DNA of 64,000 nt, from positions 310,001 to 374,000 of the forward strand of contig JACQEZ010000001.1 in assembly GCA_016200325.1 (NCBI GenBank), in the 5' to 3' direction. Below, piece after piece: positions 7,350 through 64,000 of the stretch; within the stretch, counting starts at the first letter, position 1, and each line of letters starts with the position of its first letter. The notes beneath the pieces are model-generated. The model worked only from the letters and a program-made list of their open reading frames with translations. It was not told where the DNA came from and made no database searches. Origin of the DNA: Candidatus Manganitrophaceae bacterium. Lineage in GTDB: Bacteria; Nitrospirota; Nitrospiria; SBBL01; Manganitrophaceae. Both the position numbers and the translations under genes were made by a program.

Positions 7350-8210
7350 GTGAATGCACTGAAAACAACCTTTTTTCTGACCCTCTTGACCGTCCTGCTG
7401 GTGTTTGCCGGGAAGGCGCTGGGCGGAAATCAGGGGATGGTCTTGGCGTTTGGTTTTGCCCTGGTGATGAATGGGGTGAGCTACTGGTTTTCGGACAAGA
7501 TCGTTTTAAAGATGTATGGGGCCCAGCAGGTGACCGAGGCCGAAGCGCCGCAACTCTATAGCATTGTGGCCGATCTGGCGATGCGGGCGCAGATGCCGAT
7601 GCCGAAGGTCTACATGATCGACAATCCGACCCCAAACGCCTTCGCGACCGGCCGCAACCCGAACCATGCCGCCGTCGCGGTGACCAGCGGAATCATGCGG
7701 ATTCTCAACCGCGAAGAGCTGACCGGGGTCTTGGCGCATGAGCTCTCGCACGTCCGGCATCGCGATATCCTCATCTCCACCGTCGCCGCCACCGTGGCCG
7801 GCGCCATCTCGATGCTCGCCAACATGGCCCAATGGGCGATGATCTTCGGCGGCTTTGGCGGGCGATCGGATGATCGCGAGGGGGGCGCCAGCGGACTCGG
7901 TGCGATCGTGATGATCATACTCGCGCCGATTGCCGCCATGCTGATCCAGATGGCGGTCTCTCGCTCCCGTGAGTTTGAGGCCGATGCCGGCGGGGCGAAG
8001 CTCTGCGGCAACCCGCTCTGGCTCGCCGAGGCGCTTCGAAAACTGGAAGCCGGGGTTCAGCGAATCCCGATGGATGCCAACCCGGCGACCGCCCACCTCT
8101 TCATCGTCAGCCCCCTTCGAGGCGGCGGGGTGATGTCGCTCTTCTCGACCCATCCGCCGATGGAAGAGCGGATTGCGCGACTGGAAGGAATGGTCTACGG
8201 CCGCAGATAA
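7350..8210 (+). CDS. htpX: membrane zinc metalloprotease HtpX (M48B)
   Basis: An inner-membrane protease for misfolded membrane proteins. The zinc motif HELSH (H130, E131, H134) lies in [12 protein letters not shown], with the third ligand in [10 protein letters not shown]. Two N-terminal and two central hydrophobic segments match the family. The start is GTG at 7350, with AAGGAGG ending 7 nt upstream; no nearby ATG fits. It follows fmt by 12 bp and its end overlaps the longest rsmB frame by 38 bp. Confidence 0.95.
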
Positions 8211-51391: not shown

Positions 51392-51880
51392 TCACTTAGG
51401 GGTATTGCGTTTCAATTTCTTCCAAAGAAGGCAGAACCAAGCGGTGCCTAAAAGGCTGATCAAAATGGGATCGAACGCTCCCTTCCGGTTCATGGCGCAT
51501 CCGCCACCCCCGTCATGGACCCCTTCGTCTCCACCGATCTGAGGGCTCCCTTCCGGTTGTTGGCGCTCCCATGATCGGCGGCAGCGTTCCCAAACGGATC
51601 AAACGCCACACCGGCATCAAAATTATCAAACCAAACCGTATGAAATGCCGAAGCGGCGGCGCGAATCCCTGCAAAATCGCCCGAACCCAGGGAGGCGTCG
51701 GAGGCGGTGAACGCCGGTGAAGTCTCATTGCCGAAGATGGCCGCCAGCGAGGTCCCTTTCACGATTAGGCGAAGTCGATAATAGGTGTCGAGCTGAATCG
51801 ACCGCCCGGCAATGCCGATCCGAGTAGTGGCGCCGTTGACCGTTTTGAAGAGGGCGATGTTCTGAGAAATGAATCGCGAT
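51392..51880 (-). pseudogene. truncated, frameshifted last module and orphan CTERM-type tail of the SBBP gene
   Basis: Immediately after the SBBP gene stop, the minus strand encodes the second half of a further copy of its C-terminal module (SQNIALFKTVNGATTRIGIAGR, split as SQNIALFK and TVNGATTRIG, through DFAGIRAAASAFHTVWFDNFD) but lacks the first half. That frame stops at 51490. A shifted frame then reads GGDEGVHDGGGGC, a few residues, AFDPILISLLGTAWFCLLW and KKLKRN before a stop at 51392. This glycine-cysteine plus helix plus basic end resembles JDVT/MYXO-type C-terminal sorting tails. A deletion plus frameshift best explains it. Confidence 0.7.
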
Positions 51881-51897
51881 TGTTTGTTAGGTCATCT

Positions 51898-54800
51898 TTA
51901 CTGTGCCACTGTTAGATCGAAATTATTAAAGAAGGTGGTATCTGCGGCCGAGGCGAACGCACGGATGCCTGCGAAGCTGCCGGAGGTTAGAGAGGAATCA
52001 GTCACAGAGATCGCTGCGGCACTCTCATTGCCGAAGAAAGCCATCAAGCGATTTCTTTTTTCGATCAGCCGCAATCGATAATAGGTATTAAACTTCAAGG
52101 GCCGGCTGACGAGACCCAGACGCGTGGTGGTGCCGTTGACCACTTTAAAGAGCGCGATATTCTGGGCGCCGGCATCGAGTCTGAGCAGATAGTAATTATT
52201 CGCATCCGACCAACGCCCCATCAGGCCACAGGCATTCCCAGCAGCCGTCACCTTGCAGTCGACAGCGATCTCTTGATCCGGTCCCACCGAGGTGAGATAG
52301 CGCGCTGCCTTCGGCTGTCCGCCGCCACTGACATTGCGTAGCTCCCCTTCGAAGACCTCCAGATCCGGCAGATATTCATTCCAACTCGCTCCCAAGCTCG
52401 TCGAGTTCGTACGATTGAAGGTATCGGCCAAAGGGGTGGTGACATCGAAGTTCTCAAAGACCGTGGCATAGACAGAGGAAGCGTACGAGCGGATGCCGGC
52501 AAGGTTGCCGGAGGGAAGCGAGGTGTCGCTGACTGAGATGGCCGGAGTGCTCTCGTTGGCGAAGTAGGCCGACACACTGGCCCCTCGGACGACGAGTCGA
52601 ATCCGATAGAAGGTGTTAAAGGCGAGGGGACGGGTCGAGATTCCCAGCCGGGTGGTCGTTCCATTCACCGTCTTATACAGTGCGATGTTCTGAGCACCGA
52701 CGTCGAGGCGGGCGCGATAGAAGTTGCTCTCGGAAGACCAACGGGCCATCACCCCGCAGGAACTGCCTGCTTCAGTGAGCTTGCAATCTGCAGAAACGGC
52801 CTGATCAGGACCGAAGACTCGTGCATAGACGGCCGCCTTGTTGGCCGCGGTCGTGTTTCGGACGGTATTATTAAAGATCTCCAAGTTACCCAGATACTCG
52901 TTCCAGTTGGAGCCGAGGGTGGTCGAGTTTGCGCGATTGAAGCCGTCGGAATAAGAGTGCGTGACGGCGATCTTGCTGACGAATGCGTCGGAGCCGTCTT
53001 GATAGGAAGGTTGAATAACGCCCGGCGTGGTTGGGAAGGTGTTCGAAGAAGTGCCTCCGGTCACATACATATTGCCGAAGGAATCGCCCGCGATGCCTTG
53101 TCCGTTCGTAAAGCCTGTCCGGCCGGTGAGATAAGTCGAATAAATGAGCGCACTTCCTGCCGGATTAAACGCAGTAACGAAGGCATTAAAAGTACAATCA
53201 TTGGAGTCTTGGCAGCCCCCTCCTGAGGCTTGAATCGGGAATGCGGTTGGGAAGTTCTCAGACCGGGTCAAGCCGGTAATATAGGCATGACCAGACGCGT
53301 CGACCGCGATTCCATGGCCCTCGTCCGACCGGATCCCACCCAGATAGGTAGAATAGATTAGCGCCGATCCGGCTGCATTGAGCTTCGTAACGAAGGCATC
53401 AGAACTGGAATCACTTCCCCCCTTTGTGGTCTGGAATGCTCCTGCAGTCACGGGGAAGTTGACCGAGGTGGTCTGGCCGGTCAGATAGGCCTGATTTGAG
53501 GAATCCAGGGCGATGCCACGGCCTTCTTCTAAAAGGGCTCCTCCTAAATAGGTGCTATAAACAAATGCACTCCCATTCATATTTAATTTTGTGATAAAAG
53601 CATCGGGACAGGGAGCCGGTATGAATTTTTCAGAGCTTCGGCTACAGGAGCCGCCACCCGAAGCGGGCTGTATCGCATTCGCGGTAGGGAAGTCTATAGA
53701 GTCGGTCCAGCCGGTGACATAAGCATTTCCGGAAGGGTCTACTGCAATGCCATTTCCGGATTCTCTTCCGGTGCCGCCTAAGAACGTCGAGTAGACCAGG
53801 GCGGATCCGGTGGAATTGATCTTTGCCACAAAGGCATCCCGACAGGGGTGATCGCCATCTGAGAGTTGTTCCGGACCGCAGTTCCCTCCTGCAAAAGAGC
53901 GCTGGATCGGATTGGCTGTCGGAAAATTACCTGACCGGGTTGTCCCTGCGATATAGGCACTGCCGCCGGCATCCACAGCAATGGCAGCGCCCTGATCATC
54001 GTCGGTACCACCGAGATAAGTCGAGTAGACGAGCTGATTACCGGGGGGGTTGATCTTAGTGATGAAAGCATCAAAACAGGGAGAGTGGACCCCATGCGCA
54101 CCGCAACCCCCGGTGGCCCACGCCGGCTGGATGGCGTTGGCCACCGGATAATTTCTAGAATTGGTTCGTCCTATGATATAAGCATTTCCTAATCCATCCA
54201 CCGCAATGCCAGATGCTTCGTCGTAACCATCCCCCTCATCCAGATTGGGATCCTCTATGGTCCCTCCCAGGTAAGTCGAATAAATGATTGCGGTCCCCGC
54301 AGGATTCAGTTTTGTCACAAATACGTTCGACGCATCGGAGGAAGGAGCGACGGTCTGAAAAGATCCTGCGGTGGTGGGAAAGTCCGATGAAATAGTTGTT
54401 CCTGTAATATACGCATTGCCCGATCTATCAACTGCAATCGCAGTTCCGCCATCAAAAGAACTTCCACCCAAATAGGTCGAATAGCCGAGGACCGGGTCGA
54501 TAATCAGCGGTCGGGTGCGGTCATATGCCGTGACCTGAAAGCCGACCTTCTCCTTTCCTTTCAGGAGATAGCCACCTGGGATGATTTGTCTCTTGCCGGC
54601 GTTGTCTTGATAGATAATTGGTTTTTGCAGTTGGGTCATCTTCCCTTGAACCGAGAGAACCAAATTACCTTGATCATCGATCTCTATCCGCTCTGCCCCC
54701 TTAAACTGAAGTTCAATCTTTCTTGGGTCGGCTTTGGGAGCGATGACAAAGTCATATTCCAATTGCCGCTGATTGCCGTAGTAGACCAGATCAATCCCCG

Positions 54801-55236
54801 GATAGACATTTTGGTATTTCACCTTTTGGTAGGTCGAAATATCAGTCTGCCACTTTTTCGGGTCATTCCCAATCAAGTAGTTCTGTTTTCCCGGAAGCGA
54901 TTCTTCTCCTAAAATGGCCGGTGCTCGATTGGCCCCGGAGAGTCCCATGGCCAACACCAAGGGGGGAAGGAGAGGGTTCTTTCCCGCTCGACTGTCGACC
55001 TTCCTCTGAATCGTCAGCACCGCTTCGGTAGCAGTCAAAAAGAGGGTGTACCCTTGTCCTCGGGAGAGAAATTTCACGTGGGCGTCGGTTTGTCCTTGGT
55101 TCTCTTCAAAGCTTAAAGGAAGCTGTCCGTAGGCCGTCTGAATCTTCTCGGTTTGACTTTGTGGTTCGGGTAGCGCGGCATAGAGGGGCATGGAGAGCCC
55201 CAGGAGCAGGGCAAGGACGATCAATTGCGATTTCAT
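51898..55236 (-). CDS. secreted SBBP beta-propeller protein with C-terminal lectin-like modules
   Basis: 1112 residues. Signal peptide LIVLALLLGLSMPLYA. The N-terminal domain (25-240) has LPLSFEENQGQTDAHVKFLSRGQGY in part and YPGIDLVYYGNQRQLEYDF, the usual partner of SBBP repeats. Seven SBBP repeats follow (YSTYLGG, then GIAVDxxGNAYITGxTxSxxFP), forming a seven-bladed propeller. Two concanavalin-like modules of about 160 residues end the protein (FNRANSTTLGSNWNEYLG; FNRTNSTSLGASWNEYLP). A third, half-deleted module lies after the stop, so the present C-terminus (NNFDLTVAQ) is probably secondary. Substrate or ligand unknown. Confidence 0.88.
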   Translation of the reverse strand: MKSQLIVLALLLGLSMPLYAALPEPQSQTEKIQTAYGQLPLSFEENQGQTDAHVKFLSRGQGYTLFLTATEAVLTIQRKVDSRAGKNPLLPPLVLAMGLSGANRAPAILGEESLPGKQNYLIGNDPKKWQTDISTYQKVKYQNVYPGIDLVYYGNQRQLEYDFVIAPKADPRKIELQFKGAERIEIDDQGNLVLSVQGKMTQLQKPIIYQDNAGKRQIIPGGYLLKGKEKVGFQVTAYDRTRPLIIDPVLGYSTYLGGSSFDGGTAIAVDRSGNAYITGTTISSDFPTTAGSFQTVAPSSDASNVFVTKLNPAGTAIIYSTYLGGTIEDPNLDEGDGYDEASGIAVDGLGNAYIIGRTNSRNYPVANAIQPAWATGGCGAHGVHSPCFDAFITKINPPGNQLVYSTYLGGTDDDQGAAIAVDAGGSAYIAGTTRSGNFPTANPIQRSFAGGNCGPEQLSDGDHPCRDAFVAKINSTGSALVYSTFLGGTGRESGNGIAVDPSGNAYVTGWTDSIDFPTANAIQPASGGGSCSRSSEKFIPAPCPDAFITKLNMNGSAFVYSTYLGGALLEEGRGIALDSSNQAYLTGQTTSVNFPVTAGAFQTTKGGSDSSSDAFVTKLNAAGSALIYSTYLGGIRSDEGHGIAVDASGHAYITGLTRSENFPTAFPIQASGGGCQDSNDCTFNAFVTAFNPAGSALIYSTYLTGRTGFTNGQGIAGDSFGNMYVTGGTSSNTFPTTPGVIQPSYQDGSDAFVSKIAVTHSYSDGFNRANSTTLGSNWNEYLGNLEIFNNTVRNTTAANKAAVYARVFGPDQAVSADCKLTEAGSSCGVMARWSSESNFYRARLDVGAQNIALYKTVNGTTTRLGISTRPLAFNTFYRIRLVVRGASVSAYFANESTPAISVSDTSLPSGNLAGIRSYASSVYATVFENFDVTTPLADTFNRTNSTSLGASWNEYLPDLEVFEGELRNVSGGGQPKAARYLTSVGPDQEIAVDCKVTAAGNACGLMGRWSDANNYYLLRLDAGAQNIALFKVVNGTTTRLGLVSRPLKFNTYYRLRLIEKRNRLMAFFGNESAAAISVTDSSLTSGSFAGIRAFASAADTTFFNNFDLTVAQ

Positions 55237-55634
55237 GGGGGGCTCCTATGTGGGGGTTCATAAAGGATGCTCGGAGGGGATAAATGGAATAGATAATAAT
55301 ACCCCTATGGTAGAGTCTTGGCTGAGAATGAGTCAATTCATCCAGGTGGATATTATCCTTAAGGCGTACAGCTCAGCTTGAGCCTGATTGAAAAAACTTG
55401 AATACGTCGGATCGTTATCAAACGCGTGTGCTGTCGTCCTCGAAGGAAAACTCATCCAGGCGGATTACTCCTTCCGTCTCAATATAGACAGCGCGAATCG
55501 AAACACGTTATTCTTAATTAAGAAAAAGTTTCTGAAATTCATTTGATTTTCCATTGTCTTCTATTGAGTTTGGGCGGAGATCGTTTTCAGAGTCTACTTG
55601 TGGTTGAGGTCGCTAACGGGCCTGAGGAGAGGGT
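55237..55634. other. intergenic with a diverged direct repeat
   Basis: No gene. CTCATCCAGGCGGATTACTC (near 55451) resembles TTCATCCAGGTGGATATTAT (near 55338), two copies about 112 bp apart, each containing the inverted core ATCC-N4-GGAT. They could be operators for the divergent SBBP and protease genes, but that is a guess. Confidence 0.4.
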
Positions 55635-60074: not shown

Positions 60075-60310
60075 TATCCCTCTTTAATATCCCTCTTTTG
60101 TAAAGATTCCAAAAGAGTGAGTGGGCCCCATTACTGAACGGAATTGCATACTGTTGGCAATCTTTCACAAACAGGCAGAATAATTGCACATCTACGGCAC
60201 AGCCTCAGCTTCCTAAGACATTGAAAAATTTATATAAGGAACATTCGGTGGGGATCTTTATGGGCCCTTTGAAGTCGGGGTCCCCCTCTTGCATTCCTTA
60301 CCTGTCCGGA
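60075..60310. other. intergenic; short tandem duplication
   Basis: AATATCCCTCTTT occurs twice in tandem just after the FG-GAP stop (about 60073-60100). No strong terminator. A weak TTGGCA...GAATAA pair (60154-60183) could be a promoter for the next gene. Confidence 0.35.
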
Positions 60311-63300
60311 ATGGAGCGATATAACTTGGGGATAGGGAGAAGACTGTCAAAAGAGGGGATCCTTCTGTTTTTGATCCTCCTCTTTCCGGATCTGCTGTGG
60401 GCTGCGACCATTACCTCTCAGCAGTCGGGCCTCTGGTCCTCCGCCGCCACCTGGAGCGGCGGCGTTCTCCCGTCCGATGGGGACGACGTGGTGATTGCAA
60501 ACGGCCATACGGTGGAGATTGATCAGGACATCGGTGCTGCTTCGGGCCTCCGAATGCTTCGGGTCGGAACCCAAAACGGGTCGACGGCGCGCCTTCTCTT
60601 TACCGGGCAGAGCCGGCCGGTCGGGACGGCGACCACGATCCGGTTTGCCAGCAGCGGCAAGGCGCGGGGGAGCAGTGCGTTTGGGATCCATTTTTTCGGA
60701 AGCGTCGATCTCGAGGGAGCGGCCGACCATCCCTTTATCATCGAGCCGGTGGTGCAGGACGGCTCCGCGATGACCTTCATCGAAAAAGATCCGGGAAGCA
60801 GCCATGTCGATCTGATCCTTCGCGGGGTGACCCTCCGATGGGCCGGCGATGAGAACAGCGCGGCGGTCGATGTCACCGGCACCGGCACCGGCCCCAGCCG
60901 ATCGACGGAGCGGGCGGTCTTGGAAGGAAACCGATTCGAGCAGTCGGGGACGATTCAGCTGTTTAATGCCAATGGAAGCCAAGGGGCTGCCGTGATCTCC
61001 GTCAGCCGCAATACGGCCGTCGCCCATCGGGGCTCGTTCGTTCAGTTTCGGGCGGCGAGTAATCTGACGATCGATCGAAATCAGATCACGCTGGCGGCGT
61101 TCCCGAAGGGGTCGCCGGGGCAAGCGGCGATCGATAGCATCCTCGGACCCGGCTCCGGCATCCGGATTGAGGGAAATACGATTCTTACCTCGATCAGCGG
61201 AGATCCGACTCCGCCTCAGCGCGTTTTTGGGATTTGGCTGATGGGATTTTCAGATTCAGTTATCCAGGGGAATACTATTTCAGCAGAGTCGGTTGCCTAT
61301 GGTTTTGAGGAGGCGATTGCTGTCTTTGGAAACCCGGCAGAACCGGCGAAGACAAGCAATATTCTGGTAGCGGGGAATGTTATTTCAAAAACAATCCATG
61401 GTATTGCGGTGCACATGCCCAGCCCGGGCAGCCCTGGAATTGTGATTACGGGAAATCAAGTTTTCAACAATCGAAATGAGCATATTTTTATATCCGAAGG
61501 GAGCCAAATCCAGATTACCAACAACGTGCTATATGGAACGCTCAACGCAGGCCAGGCGGGGATCTTACTCTATGTGACCGATCAGGTCCAAATCATCAAT
61601 AACACCTTGGATGGTACTCCTGCAGTCTCCACCGCCGGGATTGCTATTGGGAATCCCCCGAGAACTTCCACCAATGTGGTCATCAAAAACAATATGATTA
61701 CCCGCTGGAGCAAGGGAATGCAGAATCGGGATAGCGGGAACACCTTTCAAGAGGTCGGCTACAACCTTTTTTTCCAGAATGTGACGAATATTGAAGATCT
61801 GGCGGCCAATCCCAACAACCGGATTCCGAGCACCCGGACGGGGGATGTCTTCAGCGATCCGAAATATGTGAATCTCGCTGCGAGCGATTATCACCTCCAG
61901 GCCGGCTCTGCAGCGATTGACAAAGGAACCGCTTCAGGCGCGCCGACCACCGATTTCGACGGGGCGCCGCGGCCGTCGGGGGCCGGTTTTGACATCGGCG
62001 CCGATGAATACAGCGGGGCTCCCGTCCCCGATCTCGCCGTGACGGTCGATGATGCGCCCGATCCGGCGAGCGTCGGCGCGCCGGTCGTTTATACCATCAA
62101 GGTGAAGAATCAGGGCGCCGGCGCGGCGAGCGGGGTGGCGCTTACCTTTATCTTCCCAGCCGAGATCAATGTCAGCAGTGTTTCCGGAACCCAGGGAACG
62201 TGCGACAAAAACACCGGCTGTCAGCTCGGCGCGCTTGCAAGCCTGGCGCAAGCCACCGTCACGGTCCAATGGACGGCGCAGAAGGTCGGGTCGATTCAAA
62301 GCACCGTTCAGGTCTCAGCGCAGGAAACCGATCCGATCGCTGCCAACAATCAGGCGGCCGTGACGACCCTGATTTCTCCCCGGAGGGCCGATCTTCAGGT
62401 CGCCGTTACGAAGGGGGCCGATCCGATCTTGGTCGGGACCGATGTCGTTTACACGGCATCGGTCACCAATCACGGCCCGGAGACCGCCGGCGGCGTCGTC
62501 TTTACAGATCAACCTCCGGCAGGCGCGACCTTCGTCAAGGTGACAGCGGCTCCGGGGAGCTGTCAATCGGCGTCGGGAATTTCTTGTGACCTGGGAGATC
62601 TGGCCAGCGGGGCGACGGCGACGGTTTCGATCACCCTTCAATATCCAAAGGCCGGCACCTTTGCGAACACCGTCTCGGTGACCGGAGCGGTGGACGACTC
62701 CGATTTAACCAACAACAGCGCCACCGATCAAACGACCGTGACGGTGCCGGGAGATCCCGGCCCCGGCGTGAACCCCGGCCCGGCCGGGGGTCCCGGACCG
62801 GATGGCGGAACACCCTCCTCGGGCTCGTCCCATTCCGGGTTCGGTTGCGGACAAGTGGAGAACACCTCCGAAAAACGGAAATTCAATCAATCGCATCTCG
62901 GCGATCTTCTCCTGCTCTTCTGGCCCCTTTTCTATTTCCTCTTCAGGAGAGGTCGGCGGATTTCTTTTACGGCGGCGACCGCCCTCCTGGTCCTTGCCTT
63001 TATCGCAACGGAGTCGGGCGCGGCCACGATCACCTCTGGCAGCTCCGGTCCTTGGTCCTCTCCTTCAACCTGGATCGGTGGGAAAGTGCCGGGGGATGGC
63101 GATGAGGTGACGATTGATGAGGGGCACAATGTCTTGATCGATCAAGACATCGGCACCCCCGGCCGGGGATTGCTGATGCTCCATGTCGGCAAGCAGGACG
63201 GATCGACCGCGATTTTAAGATATGATGGAAGCGTCGCCCCGCGGGGTTATCAGATCCTTTTTGCCAGCACCGGTAAGACGGAAGGGGTCGATGCCTTCGG

Positions 63301-64000
63301 AATCCGGTTCTGGGGGAAGGTCGATCTTCAGGGGGCCGATTCAAAGCCGCTGACGCTGCTGCCGCAGGTGCAAAATGGCCAGGCATTTACCTTTATCCGA
63401 AGAGAAGGGTCGAACAACCATGTCGATCTCACCCTCCGTCGGCTGACCCTCCGCTTTTTGGGAGATGGCGACAATGCCGGAATTGATGTGTCCGATACGA
63501 ACAGCAGCGGGGAACGGATCGTCATCAGCGACAATCGATTTGAAAACTCGGGGTATATCCAACTGGCAAGAACGGATGGAACCGCGGCGACGATCTCCCT
63601 TTCCCGAAATGTGGCGGTCGCTCACAAAGGGCCGTTTGTCATGTTCGGTGCGGCCCGACAGATTGTGATCAGTCAGAATCAGGTGACGCTTGCCTCCTTT
63701 GGAACCACCGGCGAAGCGGTCATCGACGGCGTCGGATACAAAGACACGCCGGTCGGATCGGGAATTCGGGTTGAGGGAAATATTCTGGTGACCCCGATCA
63801 GTGGAGATCCGACCCCTCCTAAGCGCATCTTTGGCATTTGGCTCGACCGGTTTACGAATTCAGCGGTTCGGGGAAATAAAATTTCGGCCCAGACGGTCCC
63901 TTATGGCTTTGAGGAGGGGATCGCGGTCAATGGCGGCCCGGGTGAGGCGACCGGTGTTCAGATAGAGGGGAACGTTATCTCCAATACCATCCATGGGATT
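60311..64000 (+). CDS. giant secreted protein: two paralogous beta-helix proteins fused in frame (3' cut by window)
   Basis: An open frame from ATG 60311 to the window end (1230 codons, no stop). Unit 1: signal peptide (GILLFLILLFPDLLWA), G8-like domain (LWSSAATWSGGVLPSDGDDV in part), right-handed parallel beta-helix with NN-rich turns, two DUF11/CARDB-like domains (DLAVTVDDAPDPASVGAPVVY in part; DLQVAVTKGADPI), a Gly/Pro linker, then GFGCGQV, helix LLLLFWPLFYFLF and RRGRR. Unit 2 begins directly with a second hydrophobic signal-like segment (ATALLVLAFIATESGAATIT) and repeats the G8 and helix sequence (WSSPSTWIGGKVPGDGDEV). No start codon separates the units. Carbohydrate binding or lyase-like folds are typical, but no catalytic residues were identified. 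Confidence 0.82.
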   Translation, partial: MERYNLGIGRRLSKEGILLFLILLFPDLLWAATITSQQSGLWSSAATWSGGVLPSDGDDVVIANGHTVEIDQDIGAASGLRMLRVGTQNGSTARLLFTGQSRPVGTATTIRFASSGKARGSSAFGIHFFGSVDLEGAADHPFIIEPVVQDGSAMTFIEKDPGSSHVDLILRGVTLRWAGDENSAAVDVTGTGTGPSRSTERAVLEGNRFEQSGTIQLFNANGSQGAAVISVSRNTAVAHRGSFVQFRAASNLTIDRNQITLAAFPKGSPGQAAIDSILGPGSGIRIEGNTILTSISGDPTPPQRVFGIWLMGFSDSVIQGNTISAESVAYGFEEAIAVFGNPAEPAKTSNILVAGNVISKTIHGIAVHMPSPGSPGIVITGNQVFNNRNEHIFISEGSQIQITNNVLYGTLNAGQAGILLYVTDQVQIINNTLDGTPAVSTAGIAIGNPPRTSTNVVIKNNMITRWSKGMQNRDSGNTFQEVGYNLFFQNVTNIEDLAANPNNRIPSTRTGDVFSDPKYVNLAASDYHLQAGSAAIDKGTASGAPTTDFDGAPRPSGAGFDIGADEYSGAPVPDLAVTVDDAPDPASVGAPVVYTIKVKNQGAGAASGVALTFIFPAEINVSSVSGTQGTCDKNTGCQLGALASLAQATVTVQWTAQKVGSIQSTVQVSAQETDPIAANNQAAVTTLISPRRADLQVAVTKGADPILVGTDVVYTASVTNHGPETAGGVVFTDQPPAGATFVKVTAAPGSCQSASGISCDLGDLASGATATVSITLQYPKAGTFANTVSVTGAVDDSDLTNNSATDQTTVTVPGDPGPGVNPGPAGGPGPDGGTPSSGSSHSGFGCGQVENTSEKRKFNQSHLGDLLLLFWPLFYFLFRRGRRISFTAATALLVLAFIATESGAATITSGSSGPWSSPSTWIGGKVPGDGDEVTIDEGHNVLIDQDIGTPGRGLLMLHVGKQDGSTAILRYDGSVAPRGYQILFASTGKTEGVDAFGIRFWGKVDLQGADSKPLTLLPQVQNGQAFTFIRREGSNNHVDLTLRRLTLRFLGDGDNAGIDVSDTNSSGERIVISDNRFENSGYIQLARTDGTAATISLSRNVAVAHKGPFVMFGAARQIVISQNQVTLASFGTTGEAVIDGVGYKDTPVGSGIRVEGNILVTPISGDPTPPKRIFGIWLDRFTNSAVRGNKISAQTVPYGFEEGIAVNGGPGEATGVQIEGNVISNTIHGI

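Follow-up and report, generated by a model that had tools for sequence, protein, structure and literature searches.

Introduction

Internal sorting tags are represented, in the open-licence literature searched, by two isolated cases, an archaeal fusion that was tested and a myxobacterial one that was predicted. HVO_0405 of Haloferax volcanii is described as a gene fusion in which two formerly separate genes yield one chain with a tripartite sorting tag in its centre, and cleavage by the archaeosortase ArtA at this centrally located site was shown (PMC7157517). In MXAN_5598 of Myxococcus xanthus, an internal MYXO-CTERM tag was attributed to gene fusion and processing was predicted (PMC11980579). 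Here we analyse a gene that starts at position 60311 of a 64,000-nucleotide stretch of DNA from Candidatus Manganitrophaceae bacterium (GCA_016200325.1, contig JACQEZ010000001.1, positions 310,001 to 374,000; hereafter the window), part of contig C1 of a 4.2 Mb genome (G000, the query genome). This gene joins two paralogous precursors of beta-helix surface proteins in one frame, an arrangement retained as the manganese-oxidising genus Candidatus Manganitrophus evolved, and this retention suggests cleavage into two surface proteins.

Like HVO_0405, the Manganitrophus gene has an internal tripartite tag in a continuous frame joining formerly separate genes, and single-unit paralogs occur in two related genomes (G003 and G001). 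The archaeal protein differs in its PGF-type tag, its Tat export and its description as strain-specific, and no paralogous tagged precursor is described for its second half, whereas the halves of the bacterial protein are paralogs, each with its own signal and tag, found genus-wide (PMC7157517). MXAN_5598 resembles it in being bacterial and in having an internal Cys-containing tag, but there a beta-barrel of the outer membrane, carrying an OmpA domain, takes the place of a second tagged precursor, and the tag is a recognised MYXO-CTERM. The JDVT-CTERM tag and its protease MrtJ (NF033191, NF033192) offer a further parallel, namely a Gly-rich motif with an invariant Cys followed by a membrane helix and a basic end, with MrtJ encoded in the same genome; the tag described here, which we call the GFGCG tag after its motif, is not matched by NF033191, has a longer spacer between Cys and helix, and is internal in one of its copies. 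In domain content each half corresponds to the choice-of-anchor Q, NosD-like right-handed beta-helix surface proteins (NF041518, PF13229), which usually have a variable sorting tag at the end and normally one unit per gene, in contrast to the two in one frame found here.

Results

Two paralogous precursors in one reading frame

The frame opening at ATG 60311 on the forward strand, checked base by base, contains no stop at the junction between its two units and stays open as far as the window reaches, as the first-pass annotation of this DNA had described. Extending the contig past 64000, as had been proposed there, revealed a TGA at C1:374922-374924 (window 64922-64924), 924 bases beyond the window, which sets the end of the gene at 64924 and the length of the product at 1537 amino acids. 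The gene is composed of the following parts.

60311..60403, + strand: unit 1 signal peptide, residues 1-31, MERYNLGIGRRLSKEGILLFLILLFPDLLWA; hydropathy peak 2.47 at residues 14-35
60404..62836, + strand: unit 1 body, residues 32-842; G8-like strand, right-handed beta-helix, choice-of-anchor Q, two CARDB/DUF11 immunoglobulin (Ig)-like domains and a Gly/Pro-rich linker (PF10162, PF13229, PF07705, PF01345, NF041518)
62837..62959, + strand: unit 1 internal sorting-type tag, residues 843-883, GFGCGQVENTSEKRKFNQSHLGDLLLLFWPLFYFLFRRGRR; GFGCG motif, spacer of ~17 residues, membrane helix (62897-62944) and RRGRR basic cluster (62945-62959), recognised by family alignment, hydropathy, conservation and a low nonsynonymous substitution rate (dN)
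62960..63022, + strand: unit 2 internal signal-peptide-like helix, residues 884-904, ISFTAATALLVLAFIATESGA; predicted signal peptidase site after SGA, hydropathy 2.35, no in-frame ATG, GTG or TTG, and a diverging sequence that keeps its hydrophobicity and small -3/-1 residues
63023..64000, onward to 64735 outside the window, + strand: unit 2 body (beta-helix), residues 905-1475
64736-64921, + strand: unit 2 tag, residues 1476-1537, followed by the stop at 64922-64924

ATG 60311 is the presumed start codon; an in-frame TTG lies upstream at 60221, and a Shine-Dalgarno sequence was found at neither. Content of guanine plus cytosine by codon position is steady across the junction, around which the two remaining forward frames are interrupted by 9 and 6 stops, which makes the open frame at this point non-trivial.

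The two units align with 57% identity over 573 residues (E = 0), and their tails can be aligned separately (53% of 47). Both share one plan, in which a signal peptide is followed by the beta-helix, the choice-of-anchor Q region, a Cys-containing tag, a membrane helix and a basic cluster, and unit 2 is complete, with its own terminal tag GFGCGAVQ...DLGDLLFLGVPFFYHFLRRRGK.... G8-like, right-handed beta-helix and choice-of-anchor Q domains were assigned to both units (Pfam, NCBIfam), with NF041518 and PF13229 over their curated cut-offs (68.0 bits vs 25, and 86 bits vs 25.9, respectively), as expected of a choice-of-anchor Q beta-helix surface protein. The earlier description of unit 2 as a second copy of the same domains is thus correct as to paralogy, but the two Ig-like domains occur in unit 1 alone and the units are therefore not identical in domain content. 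From the fold class, one might guess at adhesion, or at binding or cutting of polysaccharide. A search by sequence for solved structures found none. An AlphaFold model of unit 1, built from only two sequences, reached a mean predicted local distance difference test score (pLDDT) of 54.5; its Foldseek matches (integrin legs, TM-score ~0.15) stem from the Ig-like part of this poor model and were not used.

Conservation of the two-unit frame in the genus

The same uninterrupted two-unit frame, at ~58-59% identity, was found in G002 (1397 amino acids), in G004 (Candidatus Manganitrophus sp. GAC4, CP114561.1; 1390 amino acids) and in G005 (1322 amino acids, counted from the first conserved residues), and also in G003, where the short contig breaks off within unit 2 and leaves 1110 amino acids of it. 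Related genes with a single unit, standing alone and ending in a tail of this type, are found in G003 and G001. Both challenges that the first-pass annotation had raised to the fusion, a hidden stop or frameshift and homologs that always consist of two separate genes, were thus put to the proof, and the fusion stands. The order of genes is common to G000, G002, G004 and G005 and comprises an M50 protease with CBS domains, HflX (both names read from the sequences), an FG-GAP lipoprotein, the two-unit gene, an outer-membrane barrel (FG-GAP and barrel from Pfam/NCBIfam-type domain assignment) and further genes; the G003 contig is too short to show the neighbours. The N-terminal signal peptide of the G005 gene lies in another frame, at C1:2835574-2835750 (L035 ~7575-7750), which reflects either a frameshift or an assembly error.

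In the tree, unit 1 sequences form one clade (support 90/91) and unit 2 sequences another (100/98), with the stand-alone single-unit paralogs outside (100/100), a topology which points to one old duplication and fusion. The simplest history would be a single tandem duplication and a single fusion, both before the sampled species split. Outside the genus, the search for homologs yielded nothing beyond partial beta-helix, anchor-Q or DUF11 matches, and the plasmid search nothing beyond a weak beta-helix match of 31%.

The junction and its evolution

Both hydrophobic segments that had been noted at the junction are there, at residues 863-878 and 883-907, flanking the basic cluster. Single-sequence AlphaFold prediction of the junction gave two helices of 18 and 16 residues at low confidence (pLDDT ~70-79 in the helices). 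The internal tail is more conserved than the body that precedes it, with identities of 63%, 66% and 80% vs 57%, 58% and 70% for body 1 (G000-G002, G000-G003 and G002-G003, respectively), and its dN of 0.13-0.35 stands against a synonymous rate (dS) of 0.6 or saturated in distant pairs. The ratio dN/dS is well below 1 for the bodies in all pairs and for the tag in distant pairs; G002, G004 and G005 are ~95% alike, and tail changes among them are too few for a ratio, so that the independent depth of this test amounts to approximately three lineages. The internal tag is conserved and under purifying selection. In contrast to the tail, the second helix is just 29-69% identical between distant pairs and varies by whole-codon indels; it is hydrophobic in every species and has small residues at its end before ATITS, as does the first signal peptide. 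Helix 2 evolves in the manner of a signal peptide.

The GFGCG tag and candidate enzymes

With a motif, a helix and a basic cluster, the GFGCG tail is tripartite like prokaryotic sorting signals. In the family alignment of eight tail copies, G-F-G-C, G-D-L-L and P are invariant, the GFGCG motif being the same in internal copies, terminal copies and stand-alone paralogs. All eight share with JDVT-CTERM the Gly-rich motif with an invariant Cys, followed by a membrane helix and then a basic cluster; the tag lies at the extreme C-terminus in unit 2 and internally in unit 1. The cognate protease MrtJ is encoded in the query genome at G000:C12:13392-13679 (109.8 bits, cut-off 75) and exceeds the curated cut-off in 5/6 Manganitrophus genomes, the query included. 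Exosortase PF09721 exceeds its cut-off in all six, and the tails have no PEP motif directly before the helix, as PEP-CTERM would. Because the curated model NF033191 was tested and the tails fall outside it, the GFGCG tag is not a formal JDVT-CTERM member.

An invariant Cys is common to JDVT-CTERM and MYXO-CTERM tags, and myxosortase cleavage in M. xanthus requires this Cys (PMC11980579). By analogy, we hypothesize that the GFGCG tag may be cut by MrtJ. The idea of a genome-wide family of GFGCG-tagged proteins was rejected, as profile and pattern searches find the tag in one family only, and hence no dedicated enzyme is implied by a many-to-one pattern. In 395 other genomes from the phylum the tag was not found, apart from four weak matches in non-coding or chance frames. 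The end of contig C19 encodes a protein (G000:C19:469996-470539, L185, minus strand) with a tail, GGGGCSIAMSATKSPLSLTEGLSSLLLLFAPFGARLYRKIRSH (GGGGCSIAM...LLLLFAPF...RK), which is missed by the curated model and is intermediate between the JDVT-CTERM and GFGCG forms.

A second two-precursor family

An unrelated family, brought up by the JDVT-CTERM search, shows the same arrangement. Its frames of 1663 amino acids in G002 and 1686 in G005 have two JDVT-CTERM tags each, at approximately residue 1000 and at the end, and contain BNR-type repeats, DUF11 and, in the second half, a CxxCH motif (names read from sequence). The frames are located as follows.

G002:C1:54061-59031 (L184:2062-7032): second two-precursor frame
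G005:C1:2440228-2445162: second two-precursor frame
G001:C162: the same junction, on a truncated contig
G004:C1:1931936-1936822: junction present, frameshifts elsewhere in the frame

A second-family tail scored 34.4 bits against NF033191; the internal tag is above the cut-off of 27 in G002 and G004 and just below it in G005 (24.0 bits). After it come basic residues and then a helix resembling a signal peptide (GGGGCTMTVGSGFDPTLVGLLGIALIVLARRSVRRRALLGRFFLISLALFFAPSITHA-NS in G002), and the sites at the end of these helices are of the AxA type (HA-NS, DA-SP, EA-SP).

Discussion

Proposed processing of the two-unit protein and its alternatives

The first-pass annotation had proposed that fused whole precursors might be processed as in polyproteins. 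The fusion has proved real and conserved; processing is the best-supported reading, and the choice of enzyme is a guess. With a probability that we put at about 0.6, the product is a polyprotein in which two beta-helix proteins, both exported and anchored at the surface, are joined and then separated by signal peptidase and by a cut at the internal tag. This processing into two surface proteins, which we infer and rank above its rivals, is favoured because of the topology, the conservation of the internal tag, a second, independent example in the genus, the presence of MrtJ and the published precedents. Sec would export unit 1 from its N-terminal signal until the tag helix stops transfer and leaves RRGRR in the cytoplasm, where this cluster would also provide the n-region for the second signal helix, and that helix would restart export for unit 2; the final tag helix would stop transfer again, which places both bodies outside the inner membrane. 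Unit 1 would then be cut at GFGCG by MrtJ or a different sorting protease, probably once the Cys is lipidated, signal peptidase would free the N-terminus of unit 2 after ESGA, and the terminal tag of unit 2 would be processed as in a normal precursor, giving two related, equimolar surface proteins. The gene would thus plausibly work like HVO_0405 and MXAN_5598.

Several observations weigh against the polyprotein. The five GFGCG tails compared with the NCBIfam sorting-signal models, NF033191 included, had no match, the distance from Cys to helix core is ~20 residues vs 10-12 in JDVT-CTERM, and Pro occurs in the tag helix, which is short. Within the genus, profile and pattern searches place the tag in the two-unit gene family only. 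In G003, an assembly in ~610 contigs, no MrtJ over the cut-off was found, and in G005 a frameshift separates the first signal peptide from the rest of the protein. Finally, the signal peptides were called by hydropathy and the -3/-1 rule rather than by a dedicated predictor.

The main rival, which we consider unlikely, is that the units stay joined, the two internal helices forming an uncut hairpin in a two-headed inner-membrane protein with both beta-helices in the periplasm. This fits the topology equally well, and normal membrane hairpins do have two helices joined by a short basic loop, so that topology alone cannot separate the two readings. A hairpin, however, needs neither the GFGCG motif, invariant wherever the tail occurs, nor the signal-peptidase-like small-x-small site after helix 2; the signal-peptide-like evolution of helix 2 and the bona fide JDVT-CTERM motif at the internal position of the second family also run contrary to it. 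Conservation of the Cys motif, together with the behaviour of helix 2, thus favours cutting. A doubtful variant of the polyprotein itself, differing in the enzyme, has an exosortase or a general periplasmic protease cut the internal tag instead of MrtJ; since it is a variant, the odds given to the rivals and to the polyprotein do not sum to one. It gains from the exosortase found in every Manganitrophus genome and from the failure of the JDVT-CTERM profile to match the tag, and loses from the missing PEP motif. Also against this variant, the invariant, Gly-flanked Cys fits the class of Cys tags that are substrates of MrtJ/MrtX (PMC11980579), and the intermediate tail on contig C19 bridges JDVT-like and GFGCG spacing.

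It is improbable that unit 2 is made also, or mainly, by internal initiation at a non-canonical start, the locus acting as two genes with no stop between them. The absence of a start codon at the junction, claimed earlier, was borne out in G000, where no in-frame ATG, GTG or TTG occurs from after the GTG encoding the V of GFGCGQV to the mature part of unit 2. There, AGGAGAGG lies 7-10 bases upstream of ATT 62960 with a duplex energy (-8.0 kcal/mol) that ranks among the best 5% of background, and G002, G004 and G005 have an in-frame TTG at the junction position. To our knowledge, however, hardly any AUU starts are known other than those of the infC type, the TTG codons have no Shine-Dalgarno match (-2.8, weaker than the background median of -3.5), and G003 has neither a Shine-Dalgarno-type signal at the junction nor an in-frame ATG, GTG or TTG where the unit 2 signal would begin. 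Internal initiation may therefore occur in some species but is not common to all of them, and it leaves the permanent absence of a stop after RRGRR unexplained. An artefact or a decaying gene, in which a sequencing error, a frameshift or a recent stop loss joined two neighbours, is barely credible. Some related tag genes do have frameshifts (the N-terminus in G005, the second family in G004 and an SBBP-type gene in the window), but the frame is common to four or more species that differ by ~40% in protein sequence and, wherever visible, sits in the same neighbourhood, and the low dN/dS of bodies and tag is contrary to decay. Such causes were rejected, sequencing error in particular because the same continuous two-unit frame occurs in other Manganitrophus genomes.

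At somewhat less than even odds, and thus tentatively, we extend this reading to the genus. Manganitrophus may regularly make tandem-precursor polyproteins, in which at least two unrelated surface-protein families are paired in one chain, each half with its own export signal and Cys tag; the basic cluster between the helices would be both the end of one stop-transfer segment and the start of the next signal, and a Cys-tag protease and signal peptidase would free the halves in a fixed 1:1 ratio. What is new relative to the precedents, within the literature searched, is that both halves are complete paralogous precursors, that the arrangement is kept across the genus and that it recurs in a second family. 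Polyproteins that contain export and anchoring signals internally are rare in bacteria, and the Manganitrophus arrangement is old, selected across the genus, present in two unrelated families and made of whole precursors. The arrangement makes it possible to ask, in a natural setting, whether signal peptidase and the Cys-tag proteases act on internal substrates, and how a chain with two exported domains re-enters the Sec channel; it also widens the Cys-tag class by a tag that current models miss, in manganese-oxidising organisms whose cell surface is poorly known.

Other JDVT-CTERM genes

In 29 other Nitrospirota genomes, in each of which a limited number of candidates was scored, 41 JDVT-CTERM frames exceeded the cut-off and none had two tags; the 29 of these frames that were checked end 34-75 residues past the first Gly-Cys match, i.e. 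the tag is C-terminal. In the window, a gene at 51394-55245 on the minus strand encodes an SBBP-type, repeat-containing exported protein in a frame of 1115 amino acids, with the JDVT-CTERM tail GGGGCAMNRKGAFDPILISLLGTAWFCLLWKKLKRN in a separate frame of 68 amino acids; it seems to be frameshifted near its 3' end, because in its G005 relative a single frame covers both body and tag. A DUF11 protein at G000:C19:285500-286500 (L101, minus strand) ends in GGGGGGCAIGFDREKMPPCRFFYLPLSFS and has no proper membrane helix, the hydrophobic stretch going on in another frame, which suggests that its tag is broken. Elsewhere in the Nitrospirota, neighbouring JDVT-CTERM genes lie a few kilobases apart in separate frames (G245:C48:59333-62641 and G048:C14:17417-21448), and these pairs are possibly the unfused counterparts of the tandem precursors.

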